Assembly (NCBI RefSeq): GCF_900104305.1
Contig: NZ_FNJC01000001.1
Coordinates: 372,001 to 436,000, forward strand
Source: Filomicrobium insigne
Lineage (GTDB): Bacteria > Pseudomonadota > Alphaproteobacteria > Rhizobiales > Hyphomicrobiaceae
DNA length: 64,000 nt
Direction: 5' to 3'
Part shown: piece after piece, positions 9,043-56,006 of the stretch
Numbering within the stretch: position 1 is the first letter of the stretch
Layout: each line of letters begins with the position of its first letter
The notes under the pieces: generated by a model
What the model was told of the DNA's origin: nothing
Database searches by the model: none
The model's input: the letters and a program-made list of their open reading frames with translations, nothing else
Translations under genes and position numbers: made by a program

Positions 9043-9053
9043 GGCATTGCCTA

Positions 9054-9659
9054 TCAGAACGCTGGGGTACGGCGCCGTGAAAGCTCCGTCAGATTGATTT
9101 CCACGGTGATCGCGCCAAACGCGTCACCACTGTCTTTGTCGGCAAGCGTCATGCTGACCTGAGATGTCCAGATCTTCAGACCGTCGTCGAACTCCGGCTT
9201 GTCAATAAAGATTTCTGTCGGCCCAATGGCGAAGGTTTTTTGAAACTTCTCCTCATCGCCCTGCCAGTAGTCGGTCGTAATGGAGCTTTGGCCTACATTG
9301 AGTCCATTCACATCCATTATGAAGATCTCTTTATAAAGACCAACGGATGCAGCTTGGCGTTTCAAGAGATAATTCGAAAGCGGACTCGCGATCGTTGCCG
9401 AAATCAGCGGCTTATCATCAGCCTGCGCTTCCTCGCGCCACGTTTTATCGAGCTCGTCAATCTCATCCTGCGTCAAGACACCATGGCGCTGATTTTGGGC
9501 CTCGACAGCCAGCTTGACGATGGGCTGACTTGACCAACCCTTGATCTCTTCGATCACATCCGGCGTAATCAGGCTTTCAACACGCCCCGGAAACTCCTGA
9601 GCCAATGACGAAGATGCAGCCAAGCACATGAGTGGAATAAATGCGAAATTTCTCATCAT
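9054..9659 (-). CDS. Periplasmic sensor-like protein (PDC/Cache-like), chemoreceptor partner
   Basis: A secreted protein of about 200 residues. The start at 9659 has a strong GGGGGAG ribosome binding site and gives a signal peptide ([20 protein letters not shown]). The mature part contains [17 protein letters not shown], followed by [22 protein letters not shown] and [11 protein letters not shown]. This order of alternating strands resembles a PDC/Cache ligand-binding fold (IFIxDxxGxxV...TxDYWQGDE), but no membrane anchor or output domain is present. It is first in an operon with the chemoreceptor, so I infer that it binds a small molecule and docks to that receptor. The fold assignment is by eye. 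Confidence 0.7.
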
Positions 9660-10131
9660 CACTCTCCCCCAATCCTTCCCTTTCCTGATCACTACAGGAA
9701 TCACGATAAAAAATGACTTAATATGCATATTGAAAATAGGTAGTTACGCTTTTCTGCTCTCATTGTGGCTTAGGCAACCGAAATACTCCCTACATCCTCA
9801 ACGTTCGGCCATAAGGAAAACCATTACCGGCTAAACTCCCGTAATCGCGGGCTTTTGCATCCGATTCAATTGAGGCTCGAGGTGTACGGTGCACAGCCCC
9901 ACTTCAAAACGAGAGCTATTTCTCGCCGACGTATTTAATTTTGAAAATGTCGATATCTTTTTGGTGCCTATCGTTGACACCCAAGCAGAAGTCCGGGTGA
10001 TATCTACCGCCAAACATCTCTAACCACGGACAATATCAAACCATATAAGTTGCACAGACTCCCGCATGCGGACGCTTGTATGGCCTCCCGCACAATTTCG
10101 AAAAAATACCAATTTAGGCGCTTGCGACGTC
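9660..10131. other. Intergenic region, no gene seen
   Basis: AT-rich stretch between the chemoreceptor operon and the GntR gene. It should hold the promoter of the chemoreceptor operon. A short weak hairpin (CCCG...CGGG near 9838-9853) was seen, but no convincing reading frame with a ribosome binding site. Confidence 0.5.
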
Positions 10132-10905
10132 TTACCTAAGGCGCACCAAATAATGCGCGCCCGAAAGCAAACAAATGCTCACGCGCCACTCGATCGGAGC
10201 CTCATTCAAAGCGTACATAGTACGATCGAGCCGGATCAAAGGAAGGCCCGGCGCAATTTCTAACGCCTTCGCTTCTCGCTCCCCCGCAGCGACGGCCGTA
10301 ATCCGCTCTTCACCGTGAGAAACTGTTAAACCGTATTCTTTTTGGAAGTGATCATAGAGCGTGTTGGGAATGGTCTTTTCCTTGACGAGCCCAGGAAAAA
10401 ACTGGCGTGGCAACACGATCGTTTCGTAGATCATAGGCTTACCGGCGTGGGTACGCACGCGTGAGACCCGGATGACCTCTGCGCCCACATCGAGCTTTAG
10501 CCGTTCCCGCTCTTCTTTGTTGGCACGCGCAATACTCATGCGTGTGTTTTGCGAGTCCGGCTCGATATGCCCCCCCCCATCCTCAAACAGGTTGAAGAAG
10601 CGGAAGAGCATCTTGTCCGGCGTGTGTTCCGCCACGAAGGTTCCGCGGCCCTGACGGCGCTCTACGAGATTATCGACGGCCAAGGCATTGAGCGCCTTAC
10701 GCACGGTCCCCTGGCTGACACCTATCTCTCGCGCCAGTTCGAACTCGCTCGGAATGAGCTGACCTGGCCGCCATACTCCCGTTCGAATGCGATCAACAAA
10801 GATCGCCTCTACCTGAGCGTAAAGAGGCTGTGCCGCGAGCGCCGTCGTTAGTTCGGCGCCCGATGGGGAAGCTTCTTTCGAATTCGGCTTGCGGGTTGCG
10901 CTCAT
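10132..10905 (-). CDS. GntR/HutC-family transcriptional regulator (SuyR-like)
   Basis: A 257-residue regulator with an N-terminal winged helix-turn-helix (PLYAQVEAIFVDRIRTGVWRPGQ..., then LAREIGVSQGTVRKALNALA and RRQGRGTFVAEHT) and a C-terminal UTRA effector domain (VRTHAGKPMIYETIVLPRQFFP, in parts; IRLDRTMYALNEAPIEWRV). It is divergent from the suyAB-type cluster that starts 69 bp away, the usual arrangement for a local repressor. A palindrome resembling a HutC-type operator sits immediately before its start, consistent with autoregulation and control of the cluster. The ligand is probably the cluster's hydroxyacid substrate or a derivative (inference). Confidence 0.9.
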   Translation of the reverse strand: MSATRKPNSKEASPSGAELTTALAAQPLYAQVEAIFVDRIRTGVWRPGQLIPSEFELAREIGVSQGTVRKALNALAVDNLVERRQGRGTFVAEHTPDKMLFRFFNLFEDGGGHIEPDSQNTRMSIARANKEERERLKLDVGAEVIRVSRVRTHAGKPMIYETIVLPRQFFPGLVKEKTIPNTLYDHFQKEYGLTVSHGEERITAVAAGEREAKALEIAPGLPLIRLDRTMYALNEAPIEWRVSICLLSGAHYLVRLR

Positions 10906-10913
10906 GTCTTATG

Positions 10914-10925
10914 TCTTATACAAGA
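10914..10925. promoter_or_regulatory. Candidate GntR operator
   Basis: TCTTATACAAGA is a near-perfect palindrome (TCTTRTAYAAGA) lying 8 bp upstream of the GntR start in the divergent gap to suyA. A partly overlapping direct repeat ATGTCTT ATGTCTT precedes it. HutC-type regulators bind sites of this kind; assignment is by position and symmetry only. Confidence 0.5.
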
Positions 10926-10974
10926 GGTCGATGTGTGTGCAATTTATTTCACATAGCGAAACAGAGGACGGACA

Positions 10975-11265
10975 GTGGCAGAAGTTCCCCATTTCCTGGT
11001 TCACAGCCCAAAGGACAACGTTGGCGTCGTTGTCATCGAAGGGCTCAAAGCCGGCACGGACATGCTCGGCGTAATCACTGAGACGAATACGACTCTCAAT
11101 CTTACCGCGCTTCATGACATTCCGATCGGTCACAAGGTCGCCCTGAACGATCTCGCAGCTGGCAGCACCGTCATCAAGTACGGCGAGGACATCGGAAAAA
11201 TGGTCGGAGACGCCAGCTGTGGCGGTCACGTTCATGTTCACAACCTAAAGACCAAGCGCTGGTGA
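10975..11265 (+). CDS. suyA: UxaA-family lyase small subunit, (2R)-sulfolactate sulfo-lyase alpha type
   Basis: A 96-residue SAF-domain protein, the small subunit of a two-part UxaA-family lyase. The start [20 protein letters not shown] and the end [18 protein letters not shown] match my memory of SuyA, which with SuyB splits (R)-3-sulfolactate to pyruvate and sulfite. Altronate and galactarate dehydratases share the fold but are usually fused and recognise sugar acids. The next gene, the large subunit, follows within 11 bp. The neighbours (tripartite transporter, two opposite-handed hydroxyacid dehydrogenases) also fit the sulfolactate set. Substrate remains inferred. Confidence 0.68.
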
Positions 11266-11276
11266 GGACCAAGGGA

Positions 11277-12458
11277 ATGGCGTCGCAATATTCGAATCTT
11301 TCGTTCAAAGGCTATCGGCGTGACAACGGCCGCGTCGGCGTCCGTAATCACGTGGTGATTCTGCCGGTTGACGATATCTCAAATGCCGCCTGCGAAGCTG
11401 TCGGCAATAACGTCAAGGGCACGCTCGCCCTGCCGCATTCTTACGGACGGCTTCAGTTTGGCGAAGATCTGGAGCTTCATTTCCGCACTCTGATCGGCAC
11501 AGGCTCCAACCCCAACGTAGCGGCCTGTGTCGTTATTGGTATCGAGCCTGGCTGGACCAAGCGGATCGTCGACGGAATCGCGAAGACAGGGAAACCCGTA
11601 GCGGGCTTCTCCATCGAGCAGAATGGTGATTTCAAGACGATCATGGACGCGTCGCGCCAAGCTAAGGAGTTTGTCCACTATGCGACAGAACTCCAACGTG
11701 AGGAGTGCGGTATTTCCGAGCTTTGGGTGTCGACGAAGTGTGGTGAAAGCGACACCACAACCGGGCTTGGCTCTTGCCCGACCGTCGGCAACATGTACGA
11801 CAAACTTCTGCCAGAAGGGATCTACGGTGTCTTCGGCGAAACGTCGGAAATCACAGGTGCCGAACATATCTGCAAAGCCCGTGCAATCAATCCGGAGGTT
11901 GGCGAGCGCTGGTACAAAATGTGGAAGGCTTACCTGGATGACGTCATCGAAGCGAACAAGGTCGATGACCTGTCTGAAAGCCAGCCGACAAAGGGAAACA
12001 TAGAAGGCGGCCTGAGCACGATTGAAGAGAAGGCACTCGGCAACCTTGAGAAGATCGGACGCACGAGCCGCTACATCGACATACTGAAGCCTGCTGAAGC
12101 TCCAGCTTCCGGCCCCGGCCTCTACTATATGGACACATCCTCAGCGGCGGCGGAATGCGTCACACTGATGGCGGCTGGTGGGTATGCGGTACATACGTTC
12201 CCAACGGGTCAGGGCAATGTGGTCGGCAATCCAATTGTTCCGGTCATAAAGATTTCGGCCAACCCAAGAACCGTACGGACGATGAGCGAACATATCGATG
12301 TCGACGTCTCGGGAATTCTTCGTCGTGACATGACGCTTGATGATGCAGGTGATGCGCTCATCGAAATGATCGTGCGCACGGCGAACGGGCGCAATACGGC
12401 GGCAGAAGCGCTCGGCCACCGTGAATTTGTCATGACAAAACTGTACAGAAGCGCATAG
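11277..12458 (+). CDS. suyB: UxaA-family lyase large subunit, (2R)-sulfolactate sulfo-lyase beta type
   Basis: A large subunit of 393 residues with family landmarks: [22 protein letters not shown] near the N-terminus (in parts), [40 protein letters not shown], and the metal-site region [19 protein letters not shown]. The C-terminal part has [21 protein letters not shown] prefer the ATG at 11277, with GAGGA 8 nt upstream, to a GTG at 11262. With SuyA it would release sulfite from sulfolactate in the cytoplasm. No sulfite oxidase or exporter lies in this cluster, so detoxification would have to be encoded elsewhere. Confidence 0.7.
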
Positions 12459-12638
12459 TTCACGAGCACTTTTGAGGAAACGCGGGAGAAATAAGAGCCG
12501 ATACGGCCGGTTCTCCTGTCCAATAAGACTTCACCAGGTTCTGGGAAGCGAAAAAGCTCAGCAGGAATTCTTATTTGGGCTCGGCGATATCGCTTCCTAG
12601 CTTCTCCAGGTGAATAGCCAAGGGAGGACGAACTCAAA

Positions 12639-13607
12639 ATGTTGTCTGGATCCAAATCTCTTTTCAAGACAATCGCTGCGGCGACACTGGCTCTCGGCTT
12701 CGGCACGATAGCTAGCCAAGCTGACGACTTTCCTTCTAAACCCATCAACTACATCATTCCGTTCGGACCCGGCGGTGAATCCGATATCACCGCACGGCAT
12801 CAGCAGCCGTTCTTCAAGAAGATGTTCGGCCAGGACCTGGTTATTTCCTATAAACCCGGCGGCGGTGGTGCAACGGCATGGGCCCAGCTCAATTCGATGC
12901 CGAATGACGGCTATACGATCATGGGCATCAACCTTCCGCATATCATCATCAAGCCGATGCAGAAGGATGTTGGCTTCAAGACAGAAGACCTCGCCGGCTT
13001 CTATATGTTCCACTACACGCCGGATGCCATCGTCGTCACAAATGATAGCCCGTTCAAGTCGCTCGACGACCTCATCAAGTTCGCCAAGGAAAAGCCGGGT
13101 GAGCTGACCTTCTCCGGATCGGGCAAGGGCACGGCCAATCACTTGGCACAGGTGACATTTGATAAGCTTGCCGGTGTCAAAACAACCTACGTACCGTTTA
13201 AGGGGACGGGTGCAGCGGTTCAGGCCCTGCTTGGCAATCAGGTTGTGGCAAGTTGGGGCTACACATCCGTGGGTGCCAAACATGCCGACAAGGCCCGCAT
13301 GCTTGCCGTCGCCATGGAAGAGCGCCACCCCGCTTTCCCTGACGTTCCTACTTTTAAGGAACTCGGGTTCGACATCGTCTCCGGTGCCTATCGCGGAATC
13401 GCAGTACCCAAATCTACCCCACCAGAAATCCAAAAGAAGCTTTCGGATATGATTGGCAAAATCAATGCCGATCCGGAATTCCGCAAGCGCATGGAAGCTG
13501 ACGGGTTTTCGCTCGTTGATGTCGGCGTCGATGGCATGGAAGCGTTTCTCGCAGAAAAGGCCAAAGGATATGCTGAAGCTGCGAAGGAAGCCGACGTTAT
13601 CAAATAG
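12639..13607 (+). CDS. Tripartite tricarboxylate transporter substrate-binding protein (TctC/Bug family)
   Basis: A 322-residue periplasmic binding protein of the Bug/TctC family with a signal peptide (MLSGSKSLFKTIAAATLALG then FGTIASQADD). Family features include FPSKPINYIIPFGPGGESDI, the ligand-loop GKGTANHLAQVTFDKLAGV, YVPFKGTGAAVQALLGNQV and a C-terminal helix rich in Lys and Ala. A GGGAGGA ribosome binding site precedes the ATG at 12639. It is the first of three transporter genes, so it probably delivers the carboxylate substrate of the cluster (SlcH in the sulfolactate systems). The upstream 180 bp gap shows no extra gene. Confidence 0.9.
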   Translation: MLSGSKSLFKTIAAATLALGFGTIASQADDFPSKPINYIIPFGPGGESDITARHQQPFFKKMFGQDLVISYKPGGGGATAWAQLNSMPNDGYTIMGINLPHIIIKPMQKDVGFKTEDLAGFYMFHYTPDAIVVTNDSPFKSLDDLIKFAKEKPGELTFSGSGKGTANHLAQVTFDKLAGVKTTYVPFKGTGAAVQALLGNQVVASWGYTSVGAKHADKARMLAVAMEERHPAFPDVPTFKELGFDIVSGAYRGIAVPKSTPPEIQKKLSDMIGKINADPEFRKRMEADGFSLVDVGVDGMEAFLAEKAKGYAEAAKEADVIK

Positions 13608-13647
13608 CTTTTGCGTCTAGTCCAATAGCAGGCTTGAGGGGGTACTC

Positions 13648-15156
13648 ATGGCCGCGATAGAGCACTTGCTAGCGGCGTTGAGCCCCTTCAATGTCCTGTT
13701 GGCCTTGGGAGGCGTAATAGCCGGCACAATTGTCGGCTCCCTACCAGGGCTGACCGCGACGATGGCCGTGGCGGTTCTCGTTCCCATCACATTCTCGATG
13801 GAGCCCGCTTCGGCACTTATCTTGATGGGTGCGATTTACACGGGTGCCATCTATGGCGGCGCGTATGCCGCGATACTTCTCAACACACCCGGAACACCTT
13901 CCGCCATCGCCACGACTTTCGATGGCTACCCGATGGCCAAGCGGGGCGACGGCGATCTCGCTATGACGATTGCGTGTCTCGCTTCGGTTGTCGGCGGCCT
14001 GGTCGGCGCCCTGTTCCTAATGGTGCTAGCCCCGCCGCTCGCCGGTGTGGCTTTGGCCTTTGGTCCGGTGGAATACTTCTGGCTCGCTGTCTTCGGTCTG
14101 TCGCTGATTGCTTCCCTTTCCGAGGGGAACCTGCTCAAGGCGCTTATGGGTGGTTGCCTGGGGCTTTTGCTTTCAACGGTGGGAGTCGCTGAAGTCAGCG
14201 CGGATATCCGGCTGACCTTCGGTTCCCAGGTGCTTATTGGCGGCATCGAGACTGTTTCGGCACTGATCGGGCTGTATTGTATACCGGTTTTGATTGACCT
14301 GGTCGCAACGCCAGCGCGTCATCTTAAGGTGACTCAAGAAAGCAAGGGTTTGCGTTTGCGCGAAGGCCTCGCGCTTTCCTGGAAACACAAATTCAACTTG
14401 ATGCGCTCATCGATTGTCGGGACGTTCGTCGGCATCCTGCCAGGAGCTGGCGGTTCGATCGCAGGTCTTGTTGCCTATTCGGAAGCGATGCGCTCGTCGA
14501 GAAATCCCGAGAAATTCGGCAAAGGTGCACCTGAGGGCATCCAGGCTTCCGAATCCGCAAATAATGCCACTGTCGGCGGAGGTTTCATTCCGACATTGGT
14601 TCTCGGCATTCCCGGAACGCCACCTGACGCGGTTATCCTCGGTGCATTGCTGGTTCAAGGTGTGAAAGTCGGGCCCAACCTTTTCACGAGCCAAGGCTCG
14701 ATCGTCTACACGTTTATATGGGGCTTGTTTCTCGCGACGATTCTCATGCTGCCGGTCGGCTTGCTGATCGGTCGCTACGCTTATCGAACGATCATTACCA
14801 TTCCGAAGGCTCTGTTGGTTCCGACGGTCGCCTTCATGACGTTGATCGGGTCTTATTCCATACGGAACTCGACCTCCGACGTGGCAATCATGGTTATTCT
14901 CGGCTGCATCGGGTGGGTTCTCGGCCGGTTCGGGTTTTCCGCTTCACCGATCGTTCTCGGCCTAATCCTTGGGTCTATTGCCGAGCAAGGCTTCGTCCAA
15001 GCCTGGACCATCGGGGCGGCCACGCACAACCTTGGCGGCATATTCTTTGGCCGGCCAATTTCGATAGCAATAATCCTCTTTATCGTCCTCTCGCTGTTCG
15101 GACCTTCTCTGGTTCGATTCATTCGCGGCAAGAAGGAGCGCCCAAATGACGGCTGA
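13648..15156 (+). CDS. tctA: Tripartite tricarboxylate transporter large permease (TctA)
   Basis: A 502-residue inner-membrane permease with about twelve membrane helices and the two TctA signatures: GSLPGLTATMAVAVLVP near the N-terminus and NTPGTPSAIATTFDGYPMAK around residue 90, echoed by LGIPGTPPDAVILGALLVQG near 320. It forms the transport channel that works with the periplasmic protein just upstream and the small subunit downstream, whose start lies inside its last codons. The sodium-coupled mechanism is a family property. Confidence 0.94.
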   Translation: MAAIEHLLAALSPFNVLLALGGVIAGTIVGSLPGLTATMAVAVLVPITFSMEPASALILMGAIYTGAIYGGAYAAILLNTPGTPSAIATTFDGYPMAKRGDGDLAMTIACLASVVGGLVGALFLMVLAPPLAGVALAFGPVEYFWLAVFGLSLIASLSEGNLLKALMGGCLGLLLSTVGVAEVSADIRLTFGSQVLIGGIETVSALIGLYCIPVLIDLVATPARHLKVTQESKGLRLREGLALSWKHKFNLMRSSIVGTFVGILPGAGGSIAGLVAYSEAMRSSRNPEKFGKGAPEGIQASESANNATVGGGFIPTLVLGIPGTPPDAVILGALLVQGVKVGPNLFTSQGSIVYTFIWGLFLATILMLPVGLLIGRYAYRTIITIPKALLVPTVAFMTLIGSYSIRNSTSDVAIMVILGCIGWVLGRFGFSASPIVLGLILGSIAEQGFVQAWTIGAATHNLGGIFFGRPISIAIILFIVLSLFGPSLVRFIRGKKERPNDG

Positions 15157-45087: not shown

Positions 45088-45486
45088 CCAAGCCCGTCCT
45101 TACTCGCCTTGTTTTGCTGTCATACGTGAACCGTTTGAGCCGCTCGTGTCCTGTGTCCAAACGGCCCTTAAGATGGGACCATCAGCACCATGCGTCGCGG
45201 CATCCGGCCTCAGCGCACATTCTGTTGGGTCCATTTTAACGAATCGTTTTTCGTGCTTTACTGCGCTGAAGTAAAAGCATTTTGCGATACGGTTCCGCGT
45301 TTCTTCACATCCAAATTTTTCTGTGAATCACCATTACGTCGGCTTCACGGTGGCGAACTGTACCAAATTCGCAACAATGCCTCAGGTATGCGCACCTGTT
45401 TATGTGCTGTTAACCCGCGACTCAGTTAATCCTACTAGCAATGTTTCTTGGATTTTGGCTCCGGCAAGGGGGAAGCCGTAACAGCT
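45088..45486. other. Intergenic region, no gene seen
   Basis: 400 bp between divergent MOSC and bcsS genes. Contains promoters of both presumably. The part near 45290-45420 is AT-rich. Nothing else recognisable. Confidence 0.5.
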
Positions 45487-46329
45487 ATGGCAATAAAGAA
45501 ATCGACGATCGCTCTGGCCTCGGCATTTACTGCCGGCCTCATCGCAACCTCAGCATTCGCAGGTGACGATGGCTTTTATCAACCGTCGTACGGCGATCTG
45601 GCATACCCGATCGTCACGTTTTCCGGTGGTGAACTGACCAATGGCGCTCGCGAGGGTTACTCCGGCATCTACTATGGCTTCAATCGGGATTTAGGCCAGT
45701 CCGGCTGGATTGGCCGGATTTACGGCTCGATCGGCGATTACGATTATGACTATGGCCCTGGGCAAGGACCGTTCGGTAATGGACCCGGCTCCGTTGACGG
45801 TGACTATTGGACCGGCGACATCATGTTCGGCTATTTGTGGGTTCGTAACGGTTTCGACCTCTCGGTGCTTGTTGGTGCTGAATACTACGATCGTGAATCT
45901 GTTACGTCTGATCCCAACCCCAATTTCCGTGGTCGTGATGAGGATGATGAATTCGGGTTCAAGGTTGTTGCCGATATCGAATCCAACGACCTGAGCAATT
46001 CGCCCCTGTATTTCGCTCTCGGCGGTAGCTACTCGACAGCTTTCGACAACTATTATTCTCTTGCCCGGGTTGGCTACAGCTTCGACCGTTTCACGATTGG
46101 GCCTGAGGCTTGGGCTCTGGGCGACGATTCCGGTGATGCACAGCGCCTTGGCGGCTTCTTGAAGCTAGACTTTGAGATTGGCACTGTCGCTACCACGATC
46201 ATCGGCTCTGGCGGTTACCAGTTTGCTGATGACGGATTTGCAGGTGAGTTCGGTGAAGAAGGTGGTTATGCCACCATTGAGTTCCGGATGGCTCTTGGTG
46301 AACCTCGTCGCGGCCTTCCTATGAAGTGA
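45487..46329 (+). CDS. bcsS: BcsS family outer-membrane beta-barrel protein
   Basis: A 280-residue secreted protein with a signal peptide (MAIKKSTIALASAFTAGLIA then TSAFA). The mature protein has alternating Gly- and aromatic-rich strands (YSGIYYGFNRDLGQSGWIGR, YWTGDIMFGYLWVRNGFDLS, FKVVADIESNDLSNSPLYFA, ATIEFRMALGEPRR), the signature of BcsS proteins associated with cellulose operons in Hyphomicrobiales. The ATG at 45487 has GGGGGAAG upstream. It is an orphan here: no cellulose synthase genes lie nearby. It is followed by a strong terminator. Confidence 0.78.
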   Translation: MAIKKSTIALASAFTAGLIATSAFAGDDGFYQPSYGDLAYPIVTFSGGELTNGAREGYSGIYYGFNRDLGQSGWIGRIYGSIGDYDYDYGPGQGPFGNGPGSVDGDYWTGDIMFGYLWVRNGFDLSVLVGAEYYDRESVTSDPNPNFRGRDEDDEFGFKVVADIESNDLSNSPLYFALGGSYSTAFDNYYSLARVGYSFDRFTIGPEAWALGDDSGDAQRLGGFLKLDFEIGTVATTIIGSGGYQFADDGFAGEFGEEGGYATIEFRMALGEPRRGLPMK

Positions 46330-46370
46330 CCTAGCGACATATCCGCAAGTTCACTTGCGCCTTTACAAAT

Positions 46371-46405
46371 AAAAAAAGCCGTGGCTTACCGCCACGGCTT
46401 TTTTT
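46371..46405. terminator. Strong bidirectional terminator
   Basis: AAAAAAAGCCGTGGC and GCCACGGCTTTTTTT pair with a 5-nt loop. A-run and T-run flank the stem, so it can terminate the bcsS transcript and the opposing small gene at 46427-46630. Confidence 0.95.
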
Positions 46406-46426
46406 AGATCCTAATCTTCTCAAAAC

Positions 46427-46630
46427 TCAGGAATGTTCTTGGTGGCTGATTGCGTTTTGGGGAGATGCCGCCCCACGCAAAACAGTTTCGACCGACGCTT
46501 CTTCGACCTTGACCGGCTCCGTTTGCGTTCCACGAGGCCGGCACATGGCCGAATTTATCGATACTCCCTCGCGAAGCAGCCAACCGCTCGCGACGCCGCC
46601 ATTCTCATTCTTGACTAAGTAGGCCTTCAT
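46427..46630 (-). CDS. Small protein, unknown
   Basis: A 67-residue protein (starts MKAYLVKNENGGVASGWLLR, ends NAISHQEHS). An excellent ribosome binding site, AGGAGGAAGCA, lies directly before the ATG at 46630, which argues it is real. One Cys, no signal peptide or membrane segment; the C-terminal half is polar. A terminator follows 22 bp after the stop. No family recognised. It lies 39 bp after the VOC gene on the same strand and may be co-transcribed with it. Confidence 0.6.
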   Translation of the reverse strand: MKAYLVKNENGGVASGWLLREGVSINSAMCRPRGTQTEPVKVEEASVETVLRGAASPQNAISHQEHS

Positions 46631-46669
46631 TGCTTCCTCCTGAACGCGTATTTTGCTGGAGCGCTCGGT

Positions 46670-47260
46670 TCAGCAGTTGGGCTTTTGAGCGGGCGTCACG
46701 ATGCCGAAGACGTTGCCCATCGGGTCGTTCACAACTGCGATGACATCACCGTTCTCGGTCTCCATTGGATCGCGCAGGATGGTGCCACCATTAGCCTCCA
46801 CCTTCTCGATGGTCGCGGCCACGTCCTCAACTTCCATATAAGTGAACCAACCTAATCCTGTATGCGGCGCAACCGGATGATTGGCTCGCATTAGTCCGGC
46901 GACCTCCTGGTTGCCGTTCAGGAAAATAGTATAGCGATCCTCGGGAGAGCTGGGCTCCTGGGTCTGATCATCAGCATCAACGACCTTCGTATTCCAACCC
47001 ATTACCTTGGAATAGAAGTCCGTCAGCTTTTCCGTTTCTGGGGCGAGCAATTCACTCCACCAGATAAAGCCTACACCGGAGCAGGAACCTCGGTTCGGTG
47101 TGGTATTTGTTGTTGCCTCGACGGCTTGCGCAGGCGCACACGCCAACACGAGCCCCGCAAAGGCCATAGACGCCACCAACTTAACGTGCTGACGAAGGTT
47201 AAGAGTCTTAAATAGACGGGCACCATTTTGGGGCGTCTGGATCATAATCGGATTCGACAT
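46670..47260 (-). CDS. Secreted VOC (glyoxalase-like) protein
   Basis: A 196-residue protein with a long signal peptide (RQHVKLVASMAFAGLVLACA then PAQAVEA) and a single vicinal-oxygen-chelate domain: FIWWSELLAPETEKLTDFYS, KVMGWNTKVVD, VAGLMRANHP, GLGWFTYMEVEDVAATIEKV, and DPMGNVFGIVTPA. The metal-ligand positions usual in glyoxalases are only partly recognisable. VOC proteins are normally cytoplasmic, so the export signal is notable. Function unknown. A GAGG site precedes the ATG at 47260. Confidence 0.85.
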   Translation of the reverse strand: MSNPIMIQTPQNGARLFKTLNLRQHVKLVASMAFAGLVLACAPAQAVEATTNTTPNRGSCSGVGFIWWSELLAPETEKLTDFYSKVMGWNTKVVDADDQTQEPSSPEDRYTIFLNGNQEVAGLMRANHPVAPHTGLGWFTYMEVEDVAATIEKVEANGGTILRDPMETENGDVIAVVNDPMGNVFGIVTPAQKPNC

Positions 47261-47523: not shown

Positions 47524-48540
47524 ATGGCCCACCGTAACTATCACGAAATTGATGCCAACAGCCCTTCGGCCTGCGGTCGCGCGCTTGGTAAAATGTTTGG
47601 ATCTATCATTAGGGGCTACCTCGCCGAATCCCGTGAAGACGAGGACTGGCAGGAGCTGTTGAATGAAGCCAAGCCGCTGCTCCAGCAAACCGCTCGTTAC
47701 TTTCCCGCTTATGTCGAGGAATTGGACGCCTATGCCGATGCGGCTGGTGTCCCTCTAATCGAACTGTGGGCGATGAGCATCGAGGATGAACTTGGCGATG
47801 ACGACTATGAGAAATGCACGACGGTCGTTACCAACAACGGCCGCTTAATCGCTCATAATGAAGATTGGGATCCGGATGCATCCGACGATATCTGCATCCT
47901 GAAAAAGAGATGCGGAGACACGACAACTCTAGAGCTTTATTATTATGGCTGCCCCTTAGGGGGGACGGCCTTGTCCATCAGCTCGAACGGTTATGTGCAA
48001 GCCATCAACAGCTTGGATCATACGGACTGGCAGATCGGCGTTCCTAAGCTCGTGATCGCCCGCAGAATGGCCGAAATTCGTAGTTTACATGCAGAGCTCA
48101 ACGGTGTTCTTGCTGTTCCGCGCTCTTCAGGCTTTGCTCACAATCTCGTAGGCAGCGATGGGGATGTTTGCGTTGTGGAGTGTACCGCTATGCGACACAG
48201 CGTGCGGTATCCAGACACTCCCAGCATTCATACAAATCATCTACTCTCTCCGACGCTAAGATGTTTCCAAGACGAGACCGACGGCAAAAGTACATTCCGA
48301 CGTTACGACAGCGCGTGCGATCTCGCCCGGCCGGGCATGGACATGGCCTCGATGAAAGAGCTGATGAGTGACGAAAGCCGGGGCGCCGTTTCAAGCCTGT
48401 TCAATCGCAATACCATCGCGCGAGCTATCGTCGATATAGACCAGCAAACAGCGAGTTTCTGGTTACGACGAGAGCGCAAAAAAGGCTGGATTGATTACCC
48501 GATAAATTTCCTCTGCGACAAGACAGAGTTCATCGCATGA
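47524..48540 (+). CDS. C45 family Ntn-hydrolase (acyl-CoA:6-aminopenicillanate acyltransferase-like)
   Basis: A 338-residue member of the C45 peptidase/acyltransferase family. The autocatalytic cysteine is in YEKCTTVVTNNGRLIAHNED (Cys about residue 98), and the mature N-terminus would be Cys. FAHNLVGSDGDVCVVECT and IHTNHLLSPTL are other family blocks. The fold performs amide hydrolysis or acyl transfer, as in penicillin acyltransferase. Its start overlaps the next gene by 4 bp (ATGA), forming an operon. It has no signal peptide. A link to the nearby beta-lysine genes is suspected from position only. Confidence 0.85.
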   Translation: MAHRNYHEIDANSPSACGRALGKMFGSIIRGYLAESREDEDWQELLNEAKPLLQQTARYFPAYVEELDAYADAAGVPLIELWAMSIEDELGDDDYEKCTTVVTNNGRLIAHNEDWDPDASDDICILKKRCGDTTTLELYYYGCPLGGTALSISSNGYVQAINSLDHTDWQIGVPKLVIARRMAEIRSLHAELNGVLAVPRSSGFAHNLVGSDGDVCVVECTAMRHSVRYPDTPSIHTNHLLSPTLRCFQDETDGKSTFRRYDSACDLARPGMDMASMKELMSDESRGAVSSLFNRNTIARAIVDIDQQTASFWLRRERKKGWIDYPINFLCDKTEFIA

Positions 48541-49589
48541 CCTTTCCACTTGCGAAGCGCATTTGGACGACAGCGAGCAGACAGCGCTTCATGTGGGGAA
48601 GCCTAGTGCTGGCTTCCATTGTCACTTTGATATTAGCTAGCTTTTTGTTGTCACGGGGCCCAGCAAAGGAGCCTTTCACGACCGAGCAAATGAGGTTTGT
48701 CACCAATGTTGTGCCGGGTACGACAAATGACGAACCCGTCGAAGTCCAAGCTACGCTCTACATTCCAAAGGCCGTAGAATTTCCCATTCCCGCGGTCGTG
48801 ATCACGCCCTCGAGCAGTGGTGTCGAAGAGACGCGTGAGGTGTACTACGCGCGGGAGCTAACAAAGGTCGGTGCTGCGGTGCTTATCATCGACAGCTTCG
48901 CATCGCGCGGCCTGACGGATTCTCTTTATGACCAGAGCGTGTTGGAGCAATGGGATGTCGAAAACGACGCTATTGCTGGCCTTGCCAAACTGGTCGCAGA
49001 CGAGCGTTTCATTCCGGATCGCATTGCGATTATGGGCGTATCGAAAGGCGGCACCGTCGCAATGGATACTGCCTTGACGATCCGGCGCAAATGGATGGGC
49101 GTAGACGATATCGCCTTTGCAGCACACATTGCCATTTCTCCCGACTGCACTTGGATTACGCGCAACGCGCAGACAACTGGGGCGCCCATACTATTTATGT
49201 TGGCTGAACTTGATGATCAGACGCCGGCCAAACCCTGCCTGGCAGAATCCTTGCGCATAAAGAACGCGGGAAACGAACGCATTGAAACCAAAGTGTATAA
49301 AGGAGCGCATCACGCGTGGGAGGAACTTGGCTGGTGGCCTGAACACGATCCTGAGGCCGAGAACTACTCGAAATGTCGTGTCTGGATTGAGGATGACGGC
49401 AAAATGTACTCCGCGCACACGGGTGAGCTCCTGCCCGAGGATGATTGGCACTCTTGGGCCAGAGACTCCTGCATGATCCAAGGCGTGACGTGTTGCGGTG
49501 GTTCATGGTCTCTTAAGAAACAGGCAACGGACGACATCATTGCTTTTCTGCGTCGGACGGGCGTTCTTGACGAGAAGCCTACAAGCTGA
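48537..49589 (+). CDS. Membrane-anchored alpha/beta hydrolase, dienelactone-hydrolase-like
   Basis: A 350-residue alpha/beta hydrolase with an N-terminal helix (FMWGSLVLASIVTLILASFL) that anchors or exports it. The nucleophile elbow GVSKGGTVAMDTAL, an acid region AELDDQTPAKPCL and the catalytic His in KVYKGAHHAWEEL are visible. It has an extra Cys-containing C-terminal part (DSCMIQGVTCCGGS). Overlaps the C45 gene start by 4 bp. The substrate is unknown; a role in processing an exported polymer or its precursor is only a guess. Confidence 0.82.
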   Translation: MTFPLAKRIWTTASRQRFMWGSLVLASIVTLILASFLLSRGPAKEPFTTEQMRFVTNVVPGTTNDEPVEVQATLYIPKAVEFPIPAVVITPSSSGVEETREVYYARELTKVGAAVLIIDSFASRGLTDSLYDQSVLEQWDVENDAIAGLAKLVADERFIPDRIAIMGVSKGGTVAMDTALTIRRKWMGVDDIAFAAHIAISPDCTWITRNAQTTGAPILFMLAELDDQTPAKPCLAESLRIKNAGNERIETKVYKGAHHAWEELGWWPEHDPEAENYSKCRVWIEDDGKMYSAHTGELLPEDDWHSWARDSCMIQGVTCCGGSWSLKKQATDDIIAFLRRTGVLDEKPTS

Positions 49590-49608: not shown

Positions 49609-50289
49609 CTAGTGAGCCTGCAAAATGCCGGACACATCTGACATCGATATCTCCAAGCTATCAGATGATGTAACCAACGCCGCGCGAAAGAATTCCGGCG
49701 CGGGCAGGTCATAAGCGAACCAATGTTCCGATCCTTGAGGCATGCTCGTATCCTCGATCTCGCGGTCCGGCGTCATCGAGGAAATCCGCTCAAGATTGGC
49801 AGAAAAACCACAGCCCGTCGCTTTGAGGTATGCCTCTTTGCGGGTCCAGATGGTGAAGAAGATTTCGCTGCGGTCAAGCCGTGGAGCGCGCTCGACGGCT
49901 GCATATTCCTCGGGACTGAAGATCTCAGCCGCCACTGCCAAATGATTGATGGATTTGTCGGCGCGCTCGATGTCGATTCCGACAGCGCCCGGAGCAATCG
50001 CGATCAAGGCACGGCCGGCCGCGTGCGATACGTTGAAATGGATTTGATCGTCTCCGACAAGGCGCGGCTTTCCGTTCACACCTGTGGTGAACGTGAAATC
50101 TCTCGGACTTCTATCTGTGTATGCGCCGAGAACCGTTCTGAGTAATGCACGGGTTTTGACGAACTCCTCTCGCACCAGAAGATGGCTGATCGAGGCAGCT
50201 CTCTGCGCTTCACTGGAGTCCAGAATCGGATAGCAGTCCTCTGCCGTTAAACGGCAGAGGTCCGCCCCGTACACACGGATTTGGGTCAT
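49609..50289 (-). CDS. 4'-phosphopantetheinyl transferase, Sfp type
   Basis: A 226-residue Sfp-like enzyme that attaches the phosphopantetheine arm to a carrier-protein serine. Key motifs are KPRLVGDDQIHFNVSHAAGR, GIDIERAD (Mg-binding Asp106 and Glu108) and WTRKEAYLKATG (Lys151, Glu152 and following). Start at 50289 with GGGAG 6 nt upstream. It follows kamA by 51 bp on the same strand. The only carrier domain seen in the window is in the Pls-like synthetase, its obvious partner. Confidence 0.95.
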   Translation of the reverse strand: MTQIRVYGADLCRLTAEDCYPILDSSEAQRAASISHLLVREEFVKTRALLRTVLGAYTDRSPRDFTFTTGVNGKPRLVGDDQIHFNVSHAAGRALIAIAPGAVGIDIERADKSINHLAVAAEIFSPEEYAAVERAPRLDRSEIFFTIWTRKEAYLKATGCGFSANLERISSMTPDREIEDTSMPQGSEHWFAYDLPAPEFFRAALVTSSDSLEISMSDVSGILQAH

Positions 50290-50340
50290 GGCTCACTCCC
50301 GCGCGTTGAAAGCCGGGCGCGGGCCAGTCCTTTGGGGTTG

Positions 50341-51663
50341 TTACTCGGCGGCCATCACGGAAGGCTTCGCCGTGGGGAGTACCGAAGGAAGACGTGCCAA
50401 AATGGCATCGCGGCCACCTGGAGCACGCCATTCGGCACGCGCTGCGGGATCAAGCGTCCTCAGCGGATCGAAGTAGAAGTACATCCGGTTCCGATCGACC
50501 GACGGCGACCGGTAGCCCGTCGCTCCGAACTTCGAGTTCTGATACTCGAAGCTGTGGACGTCGCGCTTGCCACCGCCACCTGGGGTGTCCACGATGAACA
50601 ATGGCGTGTTGAATCCGGCGGTCGCTCCGCGCACCTCACGCTCCAGCATTTGCATGTCACTTACTGGAACTCGGAAGTGCTCTGTACCCATGACCATGTC
50701 GCATGAGTAGACATAGTAAGGCTGGATGTTCACGGCGCTCAGCTTCTTGATCAGTTCGATCATTGTGCTGGGATTGTCGTTTACGCCGCGCAGGAGAACC
50801 GCCTGGTTGCGAACGTGAATGCCATCCGAAAAGAGCCGACGCATAGCCTTCTCAACCAGCGGCGTGACCTCGCGCGGATGGTTGAAGTGGGTGTGAACGA
50901 AGACGCTCTTGAATAAGGAGCGGCCACGCTGCGCCACCTCATTGATCGCTTCGTACCAAGGATCATCCGAAAGGAACTTCATCGGTTGAACGGAAACCGA
51001 TTTGGTTGCGAAGCGAATACGCCTTACGTGCTCGATGTCGAGGAGCGCATGGCCGATGAGTTTGATATTCGCTGGCTTCAGGCGGGCGATGTCGCCGCCG
51101 GAAACCACAACGTCCTCAATGCTTGGGTTTGAGCGGATGTAGTTGAGGGCGGCCAACCAGCCGCTTGCACTTGTAACCGTATCTTTTTGCAACGACTCCG
51201 TCGCCTGGCCTACGGCATAGCTGCGCGTGCAGTATTGGCAATATACCGGGCAAACAGAGGTGACGAGGAACAGAACCTTGTCGGGATAACGGTGTATCAG
51301 GTTCGGAGCCGGCGATGTTTTACGCTCGTCCAGCGAGTCTACTGACGTGCATGGATGATCTTCTTCAAGCTCGGAGAGCATCGGCAAGAACTGCCGGCGA
51401 ATTGGATCGCTTTCTGCATTGCGCCAGTCAATCAAGTCGAGGATGTATGGATTAAGCCGGATTGACATGCCGACCTTTTTCAAACCCTCGCGCATTTCGT
51501 TAACAAAGCTTTCCGGCGCGACATTTCCAAGCGCTGCCTCAAGCTGATCAATTCGGAAAACCGAATTCTTATCTTGCCATTTATGATCAAGAAATTCTGA
51601 CTTATCAGTCGCAGCATAGAGCCCCGACGTATTCTCAAAGCCCAGGATGTCGGTGTGGGGCAT
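50341..51663 (-). CDS. kamA: Lysine 2,3-aminomutase
   Basis: A 440-residue radical-SAM/PLP enzyme that converts L-alpha-lysine to L-beta-lysine. The cluster motif CPVYCQYCTR (Cys138, 142, 145), the PLP lysine in TPGGGGK (Lys366), and the two lysine-binding aspartates Asp322 (YSCDMVMG) and Asp359 (FIVDTPGG), as in the clostridial enzyme, are all kept; glutamate aminomutases lack these aspartates. HTHFNHPREVTPLVE and NQAVLLRGVNDN are further landmarks. No acetyltransferase (ablB) for N-acetyl-beta-lysine is next to it; it is divergent from a Pls-type synthetase and followed by the phosphopantetheinyl transferase. Confidence 0.95.
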   Translation of the reverse strand: MPHTDILGFENTSGLYAATDKSEFLDHKWQDKNSVFRIDQLEAALGNVAPESFVNEMREGLKKVGMSIRLNPYILDLIDWRNAESDPIRRQFLPMLSELEEDHPCTSVDSLDERKTSPAPNLIHRYPDKVLFLVTSVCPVYCQYCTRSYAVGQATESLQKDTVTSASGWLAALNYIRSNPSIEDVVVSGGDIARLKPANIKLIGHALLDIEHVRRIRFATKSVSVQPMKFLSDDPWYEAINEVAQRGRSLFKSVFVHTHFNHPREVTPLVEKAMRRLFSDGIHVRNQAVLLRGVNDNPSTMIELIKKLSAVNIQPYYVYSCDMVMGTEHFRVPVSDMQMLEREVRGATAGFNTPLFIVDTPGGGGKRDVHSFEYQNSKFGATGYRSPSVDRNRMYFYFDPLRTLDPAARAEWRAPGGRDAILARLPSVLPTAKPSVMAAE

Positions 51664-51875
51664 GGTTCAACTCCGCCTCAAATTCGTATCAAATTTGAAC
51701 AACTGGCCATACCCTGCGCAAATCACAGACCGATTCCTGGTTAAGCTCGACGCTCCTCCTCTTAGTGGTTAAAAAAGTATTTACAGATCCGTTTGCTTTT
51801 TTCTGGCTATAATCGGCACGAAGTTTGCGTTCCGACACACGCACCAATCTTTTTTTCGCGCATGTGGCGGTTTTC
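51664..51875. promoter_or_regulatory. Divergent promoter region kamA/pls
   Basis: 212-bp shared gap. Near kamA there are two TCAAATT repeats (51678-51684 and 51689-51695), the palindrome TCAAATTTGA (51689-51698), and the inverted pair GTTCAA/TTGAAC (51665-51670, 51695-51700), which encloses the kamA ribosome binding site. Toward pls, TATAAT at 51810-51815 is a candidate -10, but no good -35 was found at 16-18 bp. Confidence 0.45.
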
Positions 51876-54800
51876 ATGAGTTCTGTTCTTAAAGAGAATA
51901 AATGGCGTGATGCGGCACTTGCGGCCGGTGATACGCTCGCCGCTGCTGATTTTGGTATCGACGCACGGACTGAATCGCGAGAAACGCGCATTCAATCCAA
52001 ATCCGACTCTCTCATGTCTCGACTGGATCAATTGTCTCGTTCCGGTCGATCATGGAAGCCAACGCGGATGGCGCCCTGCCTCCACGAAATATTCGAGCGG
52101 CAGGCTGACCGCACACCCGATGCAATTGCTCTTGAATGCGGCGATAAGGCTCTGAGCTATCTCGAGCTGGAAGAGGAAGCCAATAGAATGGCGCGCTACC
52201 TGCGCGCTCTTGGTGTTACCCCCGGACGCTTTGTAGGGATTTCACTCGACCGGTCTCAGTGGCCCATTATTACGATTCTGGCTGTCCTAAAGTCAGGCGG
52301 CGCCTACGTTCCGATCGAACCCTCACTGCCAAACGACCGCATTCGCTATATCGCGGAAGCCGCAGATCTGGCGATTGTCGTGACAGAGGCTGAATACGAG
52401 GCGCGCTTGTCAGAGATCAGCGCTGGCAAAGTCGTGACCGTCGAGCAGTATCGTATGTCCGCGAGTGGCTATAGTGACACGCGCTTATCGCGTAGCGAGT
52501 CGCGCGTCCAAGCGGACGACATCTGCTACGTCTTGTTCACTTCCGGCACGACAGGGCGTCCGAAAGGCGTCGTTACGGAACATCGGAATGTCGTTCACTT
52601 CGTTGAAGCCTTCAATGAAGTGTGCAGCACGACGGCCGACGATCGCGTTTACCAGGGTTTTGCTCTGGGATTCGATGGCTCCGTGGAAGAGATGTGGATG
52701 GCATTCTCGAACGGCGCGACGCTCGTCTGCGGCGACAAGGCCACGCCGCGTTTCGGTGCGGATCTCGCGGACTACCTCAAGTCCCGGAAGATAACCTTCC
52801 TGTCGACTGTTCCCACGTTGCTGTCCACTCTGACACAGAACATTCCTTCTCTGAGACAGCTCGTTGTTAGCGGAGAGGCTTGCCCCGCTGACCTCGTGAA
52901 CCGCTGGTGCCGTCCAGGCCTTACGATGCGCAACGTCTATGGCCCAACGGAAGCGACGGTCAACACGACGGCGAGCGTACTTGAGGCCGGAAAGCCGGTA
53001 ACCATCGGGCGTCCGCTCCCGGGCTATAACCTGCACATTCTCGATAGCGAGATGCGGCCTGTTCCGCATGGGGAAAAGGGCGAGCTTTACGTCAGCGGCG
53101 ATGGCTTATCTCGCGGTTACCTCAATCAACCGGAACTCACTGGGCGTGCCTTCATCTCGTGGGCGCCGCCGTCTGATGCCGTCTCCGATGAGCTAGCGAC
53201 CTCTCAGACGCTCCGCCTCTACAAGACTGGCGATCAGGTCCGCTGGAATTCTGACGGTGAACTGGAATTCTTCGGCCGCATCGACAGTCAGGTCAAGCTG
53301 CGGGGCTTCCGTATCGAGCTGTCTGAAATCGAAGCAATTCTCGTCGAACAGTCAGAGATCACGTCGTCTGCTGTCAAAGTCTATGATGCCGATGGTGTTC
53401 AAAGCCTTGCCGCATATGTGCTGCTAACAGAAGGCGCAGGCGCCCTGGACCGGTCGCACTTGCTTGCCATTCTTCGGGATCGGCTTCCCACCTATATGGT
53501 GCCCGCCTATCTCGACGTCTTAGACAAGTTCCCGATGCTGACCAGCGGCAAGGTGGACCGTAATCGTCTGCCTGCACCAACGCGCGCGCTGGTGACAGAG
53601 GACGCTTCGACCGACGCTGAAATGTCGGAATTTGAAGAGCGCGTCGCTGCGGTCTGGGCGAAGCTTCTGAAGGTCCCCAAGGTTGGGCCTGAGCAGAACT
53701 TCTTCACAGATCTTGGCGGACACTCGTTGCTTGCCGCTCAACTCGTTACGGCGCTGCGTGCTGACTTAAGCGTAAGCGTACCGGTTCGTGACACCTATGC
53801 GCATCCGACCGTTCGGCAGTTAGCGGCCCATATTGAAAAGGTCAGCGCTCAGGCCAAGACCAAAACGGCGGCCACGGCTGCTACGGCTGTTCCAGCCAAG
53901 GCCATCGCCCCGAAGCGCCCCTGGTCAACCGTACTATTTCAAGTCCTTTATATGCTGTCGATTGTGCCGCTACTGGCTTTGCCGATCGTCTATATTCTGC
54001 CGCTCGCCATGGAGGCGTTACAGAAACGTGCCTCCGTTGTCGAACTGGCCATCACGAGCCTTGCGGTCGTCCTGGCCACCTGGCTGGCGCTGGTTGTTAT
54101 CGCAATCGCCGCAAAGTGGACCATTATCGGACGGTTCCGCCCAGGTCGTTATCCTCTGTGGGGCAGCTATTACCTCCGCTGGTGGATTGTCTCTCGTCTG
54201 CAGCACCTGAGCGGGATGTCGGCTCTCAACGGTACGCCGTTAGCGCCTGTCATGTGGCGACTCATGGGTGCACGCGTTGGACGACGCTGCGTCCTCAACC
54301 CGAGCCTCATCTACGCGTGGGACTGCATCAAAATCGGAAATGACGTCAGCATCGGCGTTGACGCGCAGCTTCCTGCATTGCGAATGGAGGATGGCGAACT
54401 CGTCGTCGGCAACGTGGAGATTGGCGAACGCTGTTTCATCGGCTGCCACTCCGCTCTCGGCCTGAACGTCAAAATGGGTGCCGATTCTCGCCTCGACGAT
54501 CAGTCGATGCTTCCCGACGGATCCATCGTCCCGGCTAGCGCTGCCTTTCGTGGCTCGCCAGCTCAGCAGAGCGAAGTTGCGACACCCGAGGGCGCTCCCG
54601 TCCTGTTTGGCTGGTTCCGTCTTACGACGTTCACATTGCTGCAACTCTCGTTGGGTTTCATCGTCACGCTTGTGACAGTGGCCCCCGTCGCCGTGTCAGC
54701 ATGGCTCACCGCGATGTTGGTGTTGCATTACCCTGCGAATGTCGCCGCCTTGGGCTTTCTTGCGATCATACCCGCAACGATGACCTTCTTCGCTCTCTGG

Positions 54801-56006
54801 GTCGGGCTCTGCAAGAACCTTGTTTATCCCAATCCGAAGCCGGGCGTTTATAAAGTCTACTCAATTGCCTATCTGCAGCATTGGCTATCCAGCCTTGTGA
54901 TGCAAATTGCGCAAGTTATCGGCATGCCGATTTTCACGACCCTCTATCTGCCGGCGTGGATGCGCTACCTTGGAGCACGCCTCGGAAAACATACCGAGAT
55001 GTCGACGGTCTGGCGGGTCAATCCTGACATGCTGATCGCAGGTGACGGCGTATTCTTCGCCGATGGAAGCATGACGGGAAGTACGCGGACGCACCTTGGC
55101 CGTTTCGAAGTCGCGACCAACGAAATCGGCGACCGCTCCTTCCTTGGAAACAGCGCCATTTTATCGACCGGCGTGAATCTCGGCAGCGATTGCCTTCTGG
55201 GCGTCCTTTCATCATCGCCGCATACGTCGGATGCGATCCCTGACGGCACGGACTGGCTTGGTTCACCGGGTTTCCGCCTGCCGAACCGTCAGAAAGTGAC
55301 GTGCTTCGATCAGCGGCTGACATATAAACCTTCGTTTTGGTTGTACTTCCAGCGTGCACTCATCGACGGCCTCCGCGTCGTTCTGCCGGGATACGTCTTT
55401 GGCGGCATCGGGATTGCGAGCCTGCTCGTGGTCGTGGCCGTCTACAATTGGTACGGCGTCTGGGGCGCATATACCGCTATTCCGGTGATGTCCTGGTTCG
55501 CGCTGATGACCTGCATCGGAACCGTCGTCGGCCTCAAATGGCTTGTGATGGGACGCTTCAAACCCGAGGTTGTCCCACTTTGGAGCCGTTATGTCTGGTG
55601 GAACGAGTTGATCAACGGCCTCTACGAAACGCTCTTGGCGCCGCTCATCACGAACTTCTTCGGTACGCCGTTCGCATCCGTACTTCTTCGGCTTATGGGC
55701 TGCAAGATCGGCCGCTACTGCTACATCGAAACGGCGCTGTTCTCAGAGTTCGATCTGGTCAACATCGGCGATCACGCGTCACTGAACGCCGGCACCGTGG
55801 TCCAGAACCATCTGTTTGAAGATCGCGTGATGAAGTCGTCAGAGCTTCACATTGGGGAAGGTTGCACAATCGGCAACATGAGCATTGTTCTCTACGACAC
55901 CGTTATGGAACCGGGTGCGGTTCTGGGTCCATTGTCGCTGCTCATGAAGGGTGAGACGATGCCCAAAGGCAGTCGGTGGCACGGCAGCCCAACGGTATCA
56001 GCTTGA
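51876..56006 (+). CDS. Pls/PosA-type non-ribosomal peptide synthetase (poly-amino-acid synthetase)
   Basis: A 1376-residue membrane synthetase. Residues about 50-575 are an adenylation domain (A3 LFTSGTTGRPKGVV near 220; GFDGSVEEMW near 267; YGPTEATVN near 355; SGKVDRNRLP near 555); about 585-660 a carrier domain (LGGHSLLAAQ, Ser about 617). Then come three repeats of membrane helices plus a left-handed beta-helix domain (hexapeptide-like GARVGRRC, GARLGKHT, MGCKIGRY; about 798-897, 1033-1133, 1273-1376). This is the layout of epsilon-poly-L-lysine synthetase. It is divergent from kamA and served by the nearby phosphopantetheinyl transferase. The ATG at 51876 is chosen over a TTG at 51825; the ribosome site is weak. 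Confidence 0.9.
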   Translation: MSSVLKENKWRDAALAAGDTLAAADFGIDARTESRETRIQSKSDSLMSRLDQLSRSGRSWKPTRMAPCLHEIFERQADRTPDAIALECGDKALSYLELEEEANRMARYLRALGVTPGRFVGISLDRSQWPIITILAVLKSGGAYVPIEPSLPNDRIRYIAEAADLAIVVTEAEYEARLSEISAGKVVTVEQYRMSASGYSDTRLSRSESRVQADDICYVLFTSGTTGRPKGVVTEHRNVVHFVEAFNEVCSTTADDRVYQGFALGFDGSVEEMWMAFSNGATLVCGDKATPRFGADLADYLKSRKITFLSTVPTLLSTLTQNIPSLRQLVVSGEACPADLVNRWCRPGLTMRNVYGPTEATVNTTASVLEAGKPVTIGRPLPGYNLHILDSEMRPVPHGEKGELYVSGDGLSRGYLNQPELTGRAFISWAPPSDAVSDELATSQTLRLYKTGDQVRWNSDGELEFFGRIDSQVKLRGFRIELSEIEAILVEQSEITSSAVKVYDADGVQSLAAYVLLTEGAGALDRSHLLAILRDRLPTYMVPAYLDVLDKFPMLTSGKVDRNRLPAPTRALVTEDASTDAEMSEFEERVAAVWAKLLKVPKVGPEQNFFTDLGGHSLLAAQLVTALRADLSVSVPVRDTYAHPTVRQLAAHIEKVSAQAKTKTAATAATAVPAKAIAPKRPWSTVLFQVLYMLSIVPLLALPIVYILPLAMEALQKRASVVELAITSLAVVLATWLALVVIAIAAKWTIIGRFRPGRYPLWGSYYLRWWIVSRLQHLSGMSALNGTPLAPVMWRLMGARVGRRCVLNPSLIYAWDCIKIGNDVSIGVDAQLPALRMEDGELVVGNVEIGERCFIGCHSALGLNVKMGADSRLDDQSMLPDGSIVPASAAFRGSPAQQSEVATPEGAPVLFGWFRLTTFTLLQLSLGFIVTLVTVAPVAVSAWLTAMLVLHYPANVAALGFLAIIPATMTFFALWVGLCKNLVYPNPKPGVYKVYSIAYLQHWLSSLVMQIAQVIGMPIFTTLYLPAWMRYLGARLGKHTEMSTVWRVNPDMLIAGDGVFFADGSMTGSTRTHLGRFEVATNEIGDRSFLGNSAILSTGVNLGSDCLLGVLSSSPHTSDAIPDGTDWLGSPGFRLPNRQKVTCFDQRLTYKPSFWLYFQRALIDGLRVVLPGYVFGGIGIASLLVVVAVYNWYGVWGAYTAIPVMSWFALMTCIGTVVGLKWLVMGRFKPEVVPLWSRYVWWNELINGLYETLLAPLITNFFGTPFASVLLRLMGCKIGRYCYIETALFSEFDLVNIGDHASLNAGTVVQNHLFEDRVMKSSELHIGEGCTIGNMSIVLYDTVMEPGAVLGPLSLLMKGETMPKGSRWHGSPTVSA

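Follow-up and report, generated by a model that had tools for sequence, protein, structure and literature searches.

The presence of a lysine 2,3-aminomutase-like gene (kamA) next to a Pls-type peptide synthetase gene in the alphaproteobacterium Filomicrobium insigne raises the question of which amino acid the synthetase polymerizes. The stretch of DNA analyzed, called the window here, comprises 64,000 nucleotides (NZ_FNJC01000001.1, positions 372,001 to 436,000). A preliminary description of it proposed a homopolymer of beta-lysine, or a polymer of mixed alpha- and beta-lysine. Yamanaka and colleagues reportedly described an epsilon-poly-L-beta-lysine synthetase from Streptoalloteichus hindustanus in 2022 (doi 10.1021/acschembio.1c00832, via PMC10522769); this antibiotic-like polymer has so far been reported from one actinomycete. 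Before the Acinetobacter enzyme, such cationic polymers were identified from Actinomycetes alone among bacteria (PMC10522769, 2023), and their biological significance has been called unclear (PMC9606270). This kind of system has thus been known since 2022, and the window holds a further case, in the Alphaproteobacteria; we found no report of an alphaproteobacterial poly-beta-lysine cluster in open-access papers. Taken as a whole, the locus is best explained as a cluster that would make epsilon-poly-L-beta-lysine, a reading in which we have high confidence, and it is a genuine and probably working one.

The phosphopantetheinyl transferase, kamA and synthetase genes are three intact reading frames within 49609-56006, the limits first given for the cluster (Table 1). 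While these three genes are real, those limits missed two neighboring hydrolase genes (47524-49589), of the C45 and alpha/beta hydrolase families, which are also members of the cluster in the nearest relatives and whose reading frames overlap by four bases. The kamA and synthetase genes, initially called an operon pair, are divergent and hence do not form one operon. The gap between them measures 212 bases, counted from the first ATG of the synthetase (which gives a protein of 1376 aa; the listed TTG at 51825 is a possible start as well), and a consensus scan of this gap yielded no match to a sigma-70 promoter. The genome has two PF01648 loci, one of which encodes the Sfp-type transferase noted after kamA (226 aa; 65 bits vs. 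a cut-off of 25); a transferase-like gene also adjoins kamA in two of the relatives (L031 and L033). Further out on the strand of the C45 gene, ~1.2 kb before it, a BcsS-type cellulose biosynthesis protein is encoded, and a glyoxalase-family gene on the opposite strand separates the two (window 45448-47260).

Table 1. Features of the predicted poly-beta-lysine cluster, in window coordinates.
Feature	Position	Strand	Basis
C45-family autoproteolytic N-terminal-nucleophile hydrolase/acyltransferase; predicted polymer cutting, release or modification	47524..48540	+	NF040521, linkage, fold
Alpha/beta hydrolase, a single hydrophobic stretch at its N-terminal end; role unclear	48537..49589	+	PF01738, hydrophobic stretch, partial linkage
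4'-phosphopantetheinyl transferase; predicted carrier-domain activator	49609..50289	-	PF01648, similar gene in relatives
Radical SAM aminomutase of the KamA family; predicted to provide L-beta-lysine as a lysine 2,3-aminomutase	50341..51663	-	TIGR00238, residues, linkage
Gap from which kamA and the synthetase gene diverge; presumed to hold the promoters	51664..51875		sequence
Pls/PosA-family non-ribosomal peptide synthetase; predicted epsilon-poly-beta-lysine synthetase	51876..56006	+	TIGR02353, pocket, clade

The synthetase combines adenylation and carrier domains with the Pls/PosA terminal domain (TIGR02353, 570 bits vs. a cut-off of 423), and has three membrane/beta-helix units; six hydrophobic stretches lie in its C-terminal half. 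It is a full member of the Pls/PosA family, beyond merely ‘Pls-like’, with the TIGR02353 architecture common to Pls (epsilon-poly-L-lysine) and PosA (delta-poly-L-ornithine). Read from an alignment, at code positions that we take to be those of the GrsA numbering, its adenylation pocket is DGESVSVVNK. It has the Asp at position 1 and Glu at position 3 reported for the family (PMC10522769). The code given for the S. hindustanus enzyme that makes epsilon-poly-beta-lysine is DGESISVVNK, shared with an uncharacterized Methylomarinum protein, while the pockets of PosA (DMEHNGTVSK) and Pls (Ala at position 2) are unlike that of the window (PMC10522769). At E 1e-50, the S. hindustanus genome has two family members, with pockets DGESVSVVNK and DFECLSCVSK; we take the first to be the published enzyme because it is the sole full synthetase with a DGE pocket found there. 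Its pocket is identical to that of the window in our alignment, and the I rather than V at position 5 of the published code stems either from the reading or from the record. The alignment reading supersedes one by regular expression, in which the letters at positions 4-6 were spurious; a profile search against the PDB for the code, with linear gramicidin synthetase alignments among the matches listed, was not used. S. hindustanus also has a stand-alone adenylation-carrier protein with a DGESVSVVNK pocket that lacks the C-terminal polymerizing domain (L112:4363-6141).

Further DGE-pocket synthetases were collected in one scan of the genome_contigs collection with the FDGSVEE.W motif written as a DNA pattern, which returns exact matches only, so that the set is incomplete. 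The scan gave 55 stretches, 32 in adenylation domains of Pls/PosA-type synthetases; the 23 outside such synthetases were excluded. Also left out of the counts were L112 (adenylation-carrier only) and L043 and L047, in which the adenylation and terminal parts lie in separate genes; L106 was merged with L109 (one genome), and duplicate loci (L031, L032, L033, L172, L175, L177 and L179) were removed. With the window included, there are 31 DGE-pocket synthetases across nine phyla; MnTg02, which has no phylum label, was assigned to the Pseudomonadota because it groups with rows of that phylum. In L043 (1538-4159, 4997-6772) and L047 (6017-7813, 8656-11067) the Pls-type terminal and adenylation parts appear as separate neighboring matches, and their pocket readings are probably misalignments. 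Five synthetases from relatives (L036, L037, L038, L039 and L042) share the pocket DLED(I/V)G(T/S)VVK, and no gene for a monomer was recognized for them; DLEDIGTV(T/V/I)K is among the codes listed without a matched known polymer (PMC10522769).

A tree of adenylation domains with 49 rows (a quick search, as was the KamA tree below) places all 33 DGE rows on one side of a single branch (SH-aLRT 97), and support for this branch is 92 once the code columns and their neighbors are removed. The alignment with characterized enzymes that had been suggested as a check gives the window synthetase the pocket and clade of the S. hindustanus enzyme, which also shares its family and domain order. The two synthetases with poly-lysine-like pockets, DAES(I/V)GTVVK, form a branch apart from the DGE clade, the nearest one to it.

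KamA adjoins 21 of the 31 DGE synthetases and none of 16 with other pockets (Fisher p = 4e-6, related genomes being non-independent samples), with at most ~1.2 kb between alignment ends; the flanking DNA is uneven: several DGE loci end at the synthetase, and on one side 7 of the 16 controls have <2.2 kb. KamA was not found beside the other ten, and searches of these whole genomes found a KamA-family gene at E 1e-15 in nine. In Enhygromyxa and one Pirellulales genome, the KamA and synthetase genes are both found close to the ends of contigs, as would be compatible with a severed link. The Myxococcales, Oligoflexia and four Bdellovibrionota-type genomes have their best KamA on a contig other than that of the synthetase. 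For S. hindustanus, the assembly that we examined places KamA on a different contig or ~36 kb from the synthetase, at odds with its description as ‘adjacent’ in PMC10522769. Linkage in relatives was another check proposed at the outset: a close KamA (68-80% identity) occurs in 4 of 99 relatives, each with a DGE synthetase alongside. In samples by class and by phylum, a close KamA at E 1e-90 was found solely in the F. insigne genome itself (1/385 and 1/398). Plasmids of Rhizobium and Klebsiella also carry KamA genes (46-50% identity); no synthetase is among the annotated neighbors in three of these records, and the fourth, L139, is an unannotated one.

The linked proteins are spread over three regions of the KamA tree, with 5 actinobacterial, 9 window-like and 7 short sequences, and unlinked rows, including the rhizobial and Klebsiella plasmid genes, are interspersed with them. 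On this tree the linkage label has to change 8 times, and well-supported branches force 6 of these changes. This pattern suggests, on a quick tree that warned of long-branch joins, that an aminomutase joined a DGE-type synthetase more than once. The branch of the window (five alphaproteobacterial-type rows and Citricoccus) has the same six members in the KamA and synthetase trees (support 98-99), as expected for a KamA-synthetase pair that moved together.

Synthetases with a DFEC pocket provide an internal control. An aminotransferase of one cluster adjoins 6 of the 7, and the four of these six that we scanned are all diaminobutyrate transaminases, three above the EctB cut-off; the one beside the S. 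hindustanus DFEC synthetase is above the cut-off of the wider family TIGR00709. Production of poly-D-Dab is reported for S. hindustanus (PMC8225329), and we infer that its second synthetase is pddA. Given the adjacent diaminobutyrate transaminases and the poly-D-Dab of S. hindustanus, the rule that the neighboring gene makes the monomer is valid for a second monomer. With two pocket types paired with a monomer gene, products may be predicted from genomes.

The C45 protein scores 142 bits with NF040521 (cut-off 85) and has a family match to PF03417. Its homologues at E 1e-20 are present in 4 of the 99 relatives, exactly those with a close KamA, a coincidence expected once in 3.8 million random choices if kinship is ignored, and are absent from the relatives behind 15 of the 16 control synthetases. 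C45 genes adjoin 8 of the 31 DGE synthetases, in five phyla, vs. 0 of the 16 others (p = 0.04). Whole-genome searches covered 22 of the other 27 DGE genomes (L084, L094, L105, L116 and L134 were left out) and found a homologue at E 1e-10 in five, four of them strong (39-41% identity). All four follow the synthetase in the same orientation, at distances between alignment ends of ~20 bases in Bacteriovoracaceae, ~30 in Planctomycetaceae, ~50 in Enhygromyxa and 1.7 kb in Chitinivibrionales. The Citricoccus homologue found in the genome-wide search is weak (30% identity), and the Planctomycetaceae genome has an additional weak one. At this threshold none was found in 17 of the 22, among them S. 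hindustanus and a Hyphomicrobiales genome on the window's own branch (L095) that has KamA, synthetase and alpha/beta hydrolase.

The alpha/beta hydrolase (PF01738, 38 bits) is less tightly linked to the cluster than C45: it is present in the window, L031, L032 and L095 and absent from L033, and a homologue with 58% identity occurs in a genome (G011, C11:176-1132) with neither a close KamA nor C45. This last case, like the 23 of 31 DGE loci beside which no C45 gene was found and the 17 genomes without a homologue, would fit the view that both hydrolases are bystanders and take no part in the polymer system. We consider this unlikely for the pair, given that strong C45 homologues track the cluster exactly among the 99 relatives, are missing from the relatives behind 15 of the 16 controls, and in the 22 genomes all come shortly after the synthetase on its strand.

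Eight C45 sequences have Cys98, Asp114 and the stretch from H111 to W115 in common. A sequence search of the PDB with the C45 protein gave no match at E 1, and a structure model built from 5 sequences (mean pLDDT 77) is best matched by isopenicillin N acyltransferase (TM 0.73-0.77), followed by acid ceramidase and NAAA. The protein thus shares family and fold with the isopenicillin N acyltransferase/Tan/acid ceramidase type (PF03417, C45), but its identity to the isopenicillin N acyltransferase and acid ceramidase of solved structure is ~15%, and it adjoins poly-beta-lysine-type synthetases. A simple scan found no hydrophobic stretch, so it is probably cytoplasmic. Tan, an animal relative with the same Pfam domain, degrades N-beta-alanyl dopamine, an amide of a beta-amino acid (PMC10194958), which is a hint only as to the C45 substrate. 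In epsilon-poly-lysine producers, Pld enzymes hydrolyze the polymer and lower its toxicity to the producer (PMC8506220). From its linkage, its fold and the parallels with Tan and Pld, we infer that C45 is a protective or processing amidase; we found no report of a C45 partner for poly-beta-lysine synthetases in open-access papers.

The KamA protein itself (440 aa) belongs to the KamA family (TIGR00238, 230 bits vs. a cut-off of 199). Its best-scoring model is lysine 2,3-aminomutase (AblA, TIGR03820) with 277 bits, far under the cut-off of 525; it is not filed as AblA, and the linked KamA proteins of L113, L111, L117, L098 and L090 are likewise under this cut-off. Three annotated AblA proteins that we compared lie in a different part of the KamA tree. 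The AblA/AblB pathway, which makes beta-lysine as an osmolyte, has a KamA-family aminomutase in common with the window, but the F. insigne genome as a whole, and not just the surroundings of the cluster as first noted, gave no match to ablB; a second KamA-family gene lies elsewhere in it. Alignment with 2A5H shows that three cysteines and R134, D293, D330 and K337 are retained (C138, C142, C145, R147, D322, D359 and K366 in the window protein), which we take to be the radical SAM cluster cysteines, the PLP lysine and the substrate-binding residues. The preliminary description had relied on intact substrate aspartates. They are indeed retained, but the same seven residues are present in 22 of 22 other, unlinked KamA-family proteins of relatives (putatively labeled EpmB-like by script), so the aspartates prove little and were ruled out as proof of a lysine substrate.

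The polymer might then contain both alpha- and beta-lysine, or another beta-diamino acid made by KamA. Family models show that KamA-family members use several amino acids, the retained residues do not discriminate among them, and an unusual substrate, L-arginine, is reported in the synthetase family (PMC10522769). We nevertheless judge this very improbable: the pocket is that of the enzyme reported for the beta-lysine polymer, the best KamA model, albeit under its cut-off, is lysine 2,3-aminomutase, and the mixed polymer in particular is less likely because the poly-lysine-like pockets form a separate branch. Slightly less probable still is ordinary epsilon-poly-alpha-lysine as the product, with KamA in the service of an osmolyte pathway or lysine breakdown, for although KamA enzymes have established roles beyond polymer supply and DAES synthetases are the nearest branch, the DAES pockets differ, both of those loci lack a KamA alongside, the genome has a second KamA-family gene and no ablB, and KamA linkage is limited to the DGE pocket among the synthetases compared.

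We therefore favor the beta-lysine homopolymer, on which pocket code, phylogeny and gene linkage agree. KamA would convert L-lysine to L-beta-lysine by shifting its amino group from the alpha to the beta position, and the phosphopantetheinyl transferase would arm the carrier domain of the synthetase. The adenylation domain would activate L-beta-lysine and load it onto the carrier, and the three membrane/beta-helix units would couple successive residues, presumably via the epsilon-amine. The C45 enzyme may attack amide bonds of the product, most likely for self-protection or turnover, as Pld does for epsilon-poly-lysine; alternatively, it could release or cap the chain. The window differs from S. 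hindustanus in having C45 and both the KamA and transferase genes alongside the synthetase, while the KamA of the S. hindustanus assembly is non-adjacent and no C45 was found there at E 1e-10.

The C45 enzyme is a candidate for self-protection and possibly a tool for beta-lysine isopeptides. More tentatively, and with slightly less than even confidence, poly-beta-lysine may be a widespread bacterial trait for which aminomutases were recruited several times, with a dedicated C45 enzyme in five phyla that cuts, caps or releases beta-lysine isopeptides; this would be a new activity of the C45 family and a new component of poly-beta-lysine systems. A compact alphaproteobacterial cluster that brings its own monomer source, an activator for the carrier and a recurrent hydrolase offers a defined gene set with which the purpose of the polymer can be tested.

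KamA-family genes also occur in a different setting on plasmids. Adjacent to such a gene on a Klebsiella plasmid (L138, CP067934.1 stretch, 7962-11858) are a gene annotated as a ‘class I tRNA ligase family protein’ and one for an MFS transporter. A Streptomyces plasmid (L166, NZ_CP016083.1 stretch, 7926-13899) likewise has a KamA-family gene near one annotated as such a ligase. Paired with a ligase of the tRNA-synthetase-like type, the KamA-family enzyme perhaps serves to make a different beta-amino acid product.
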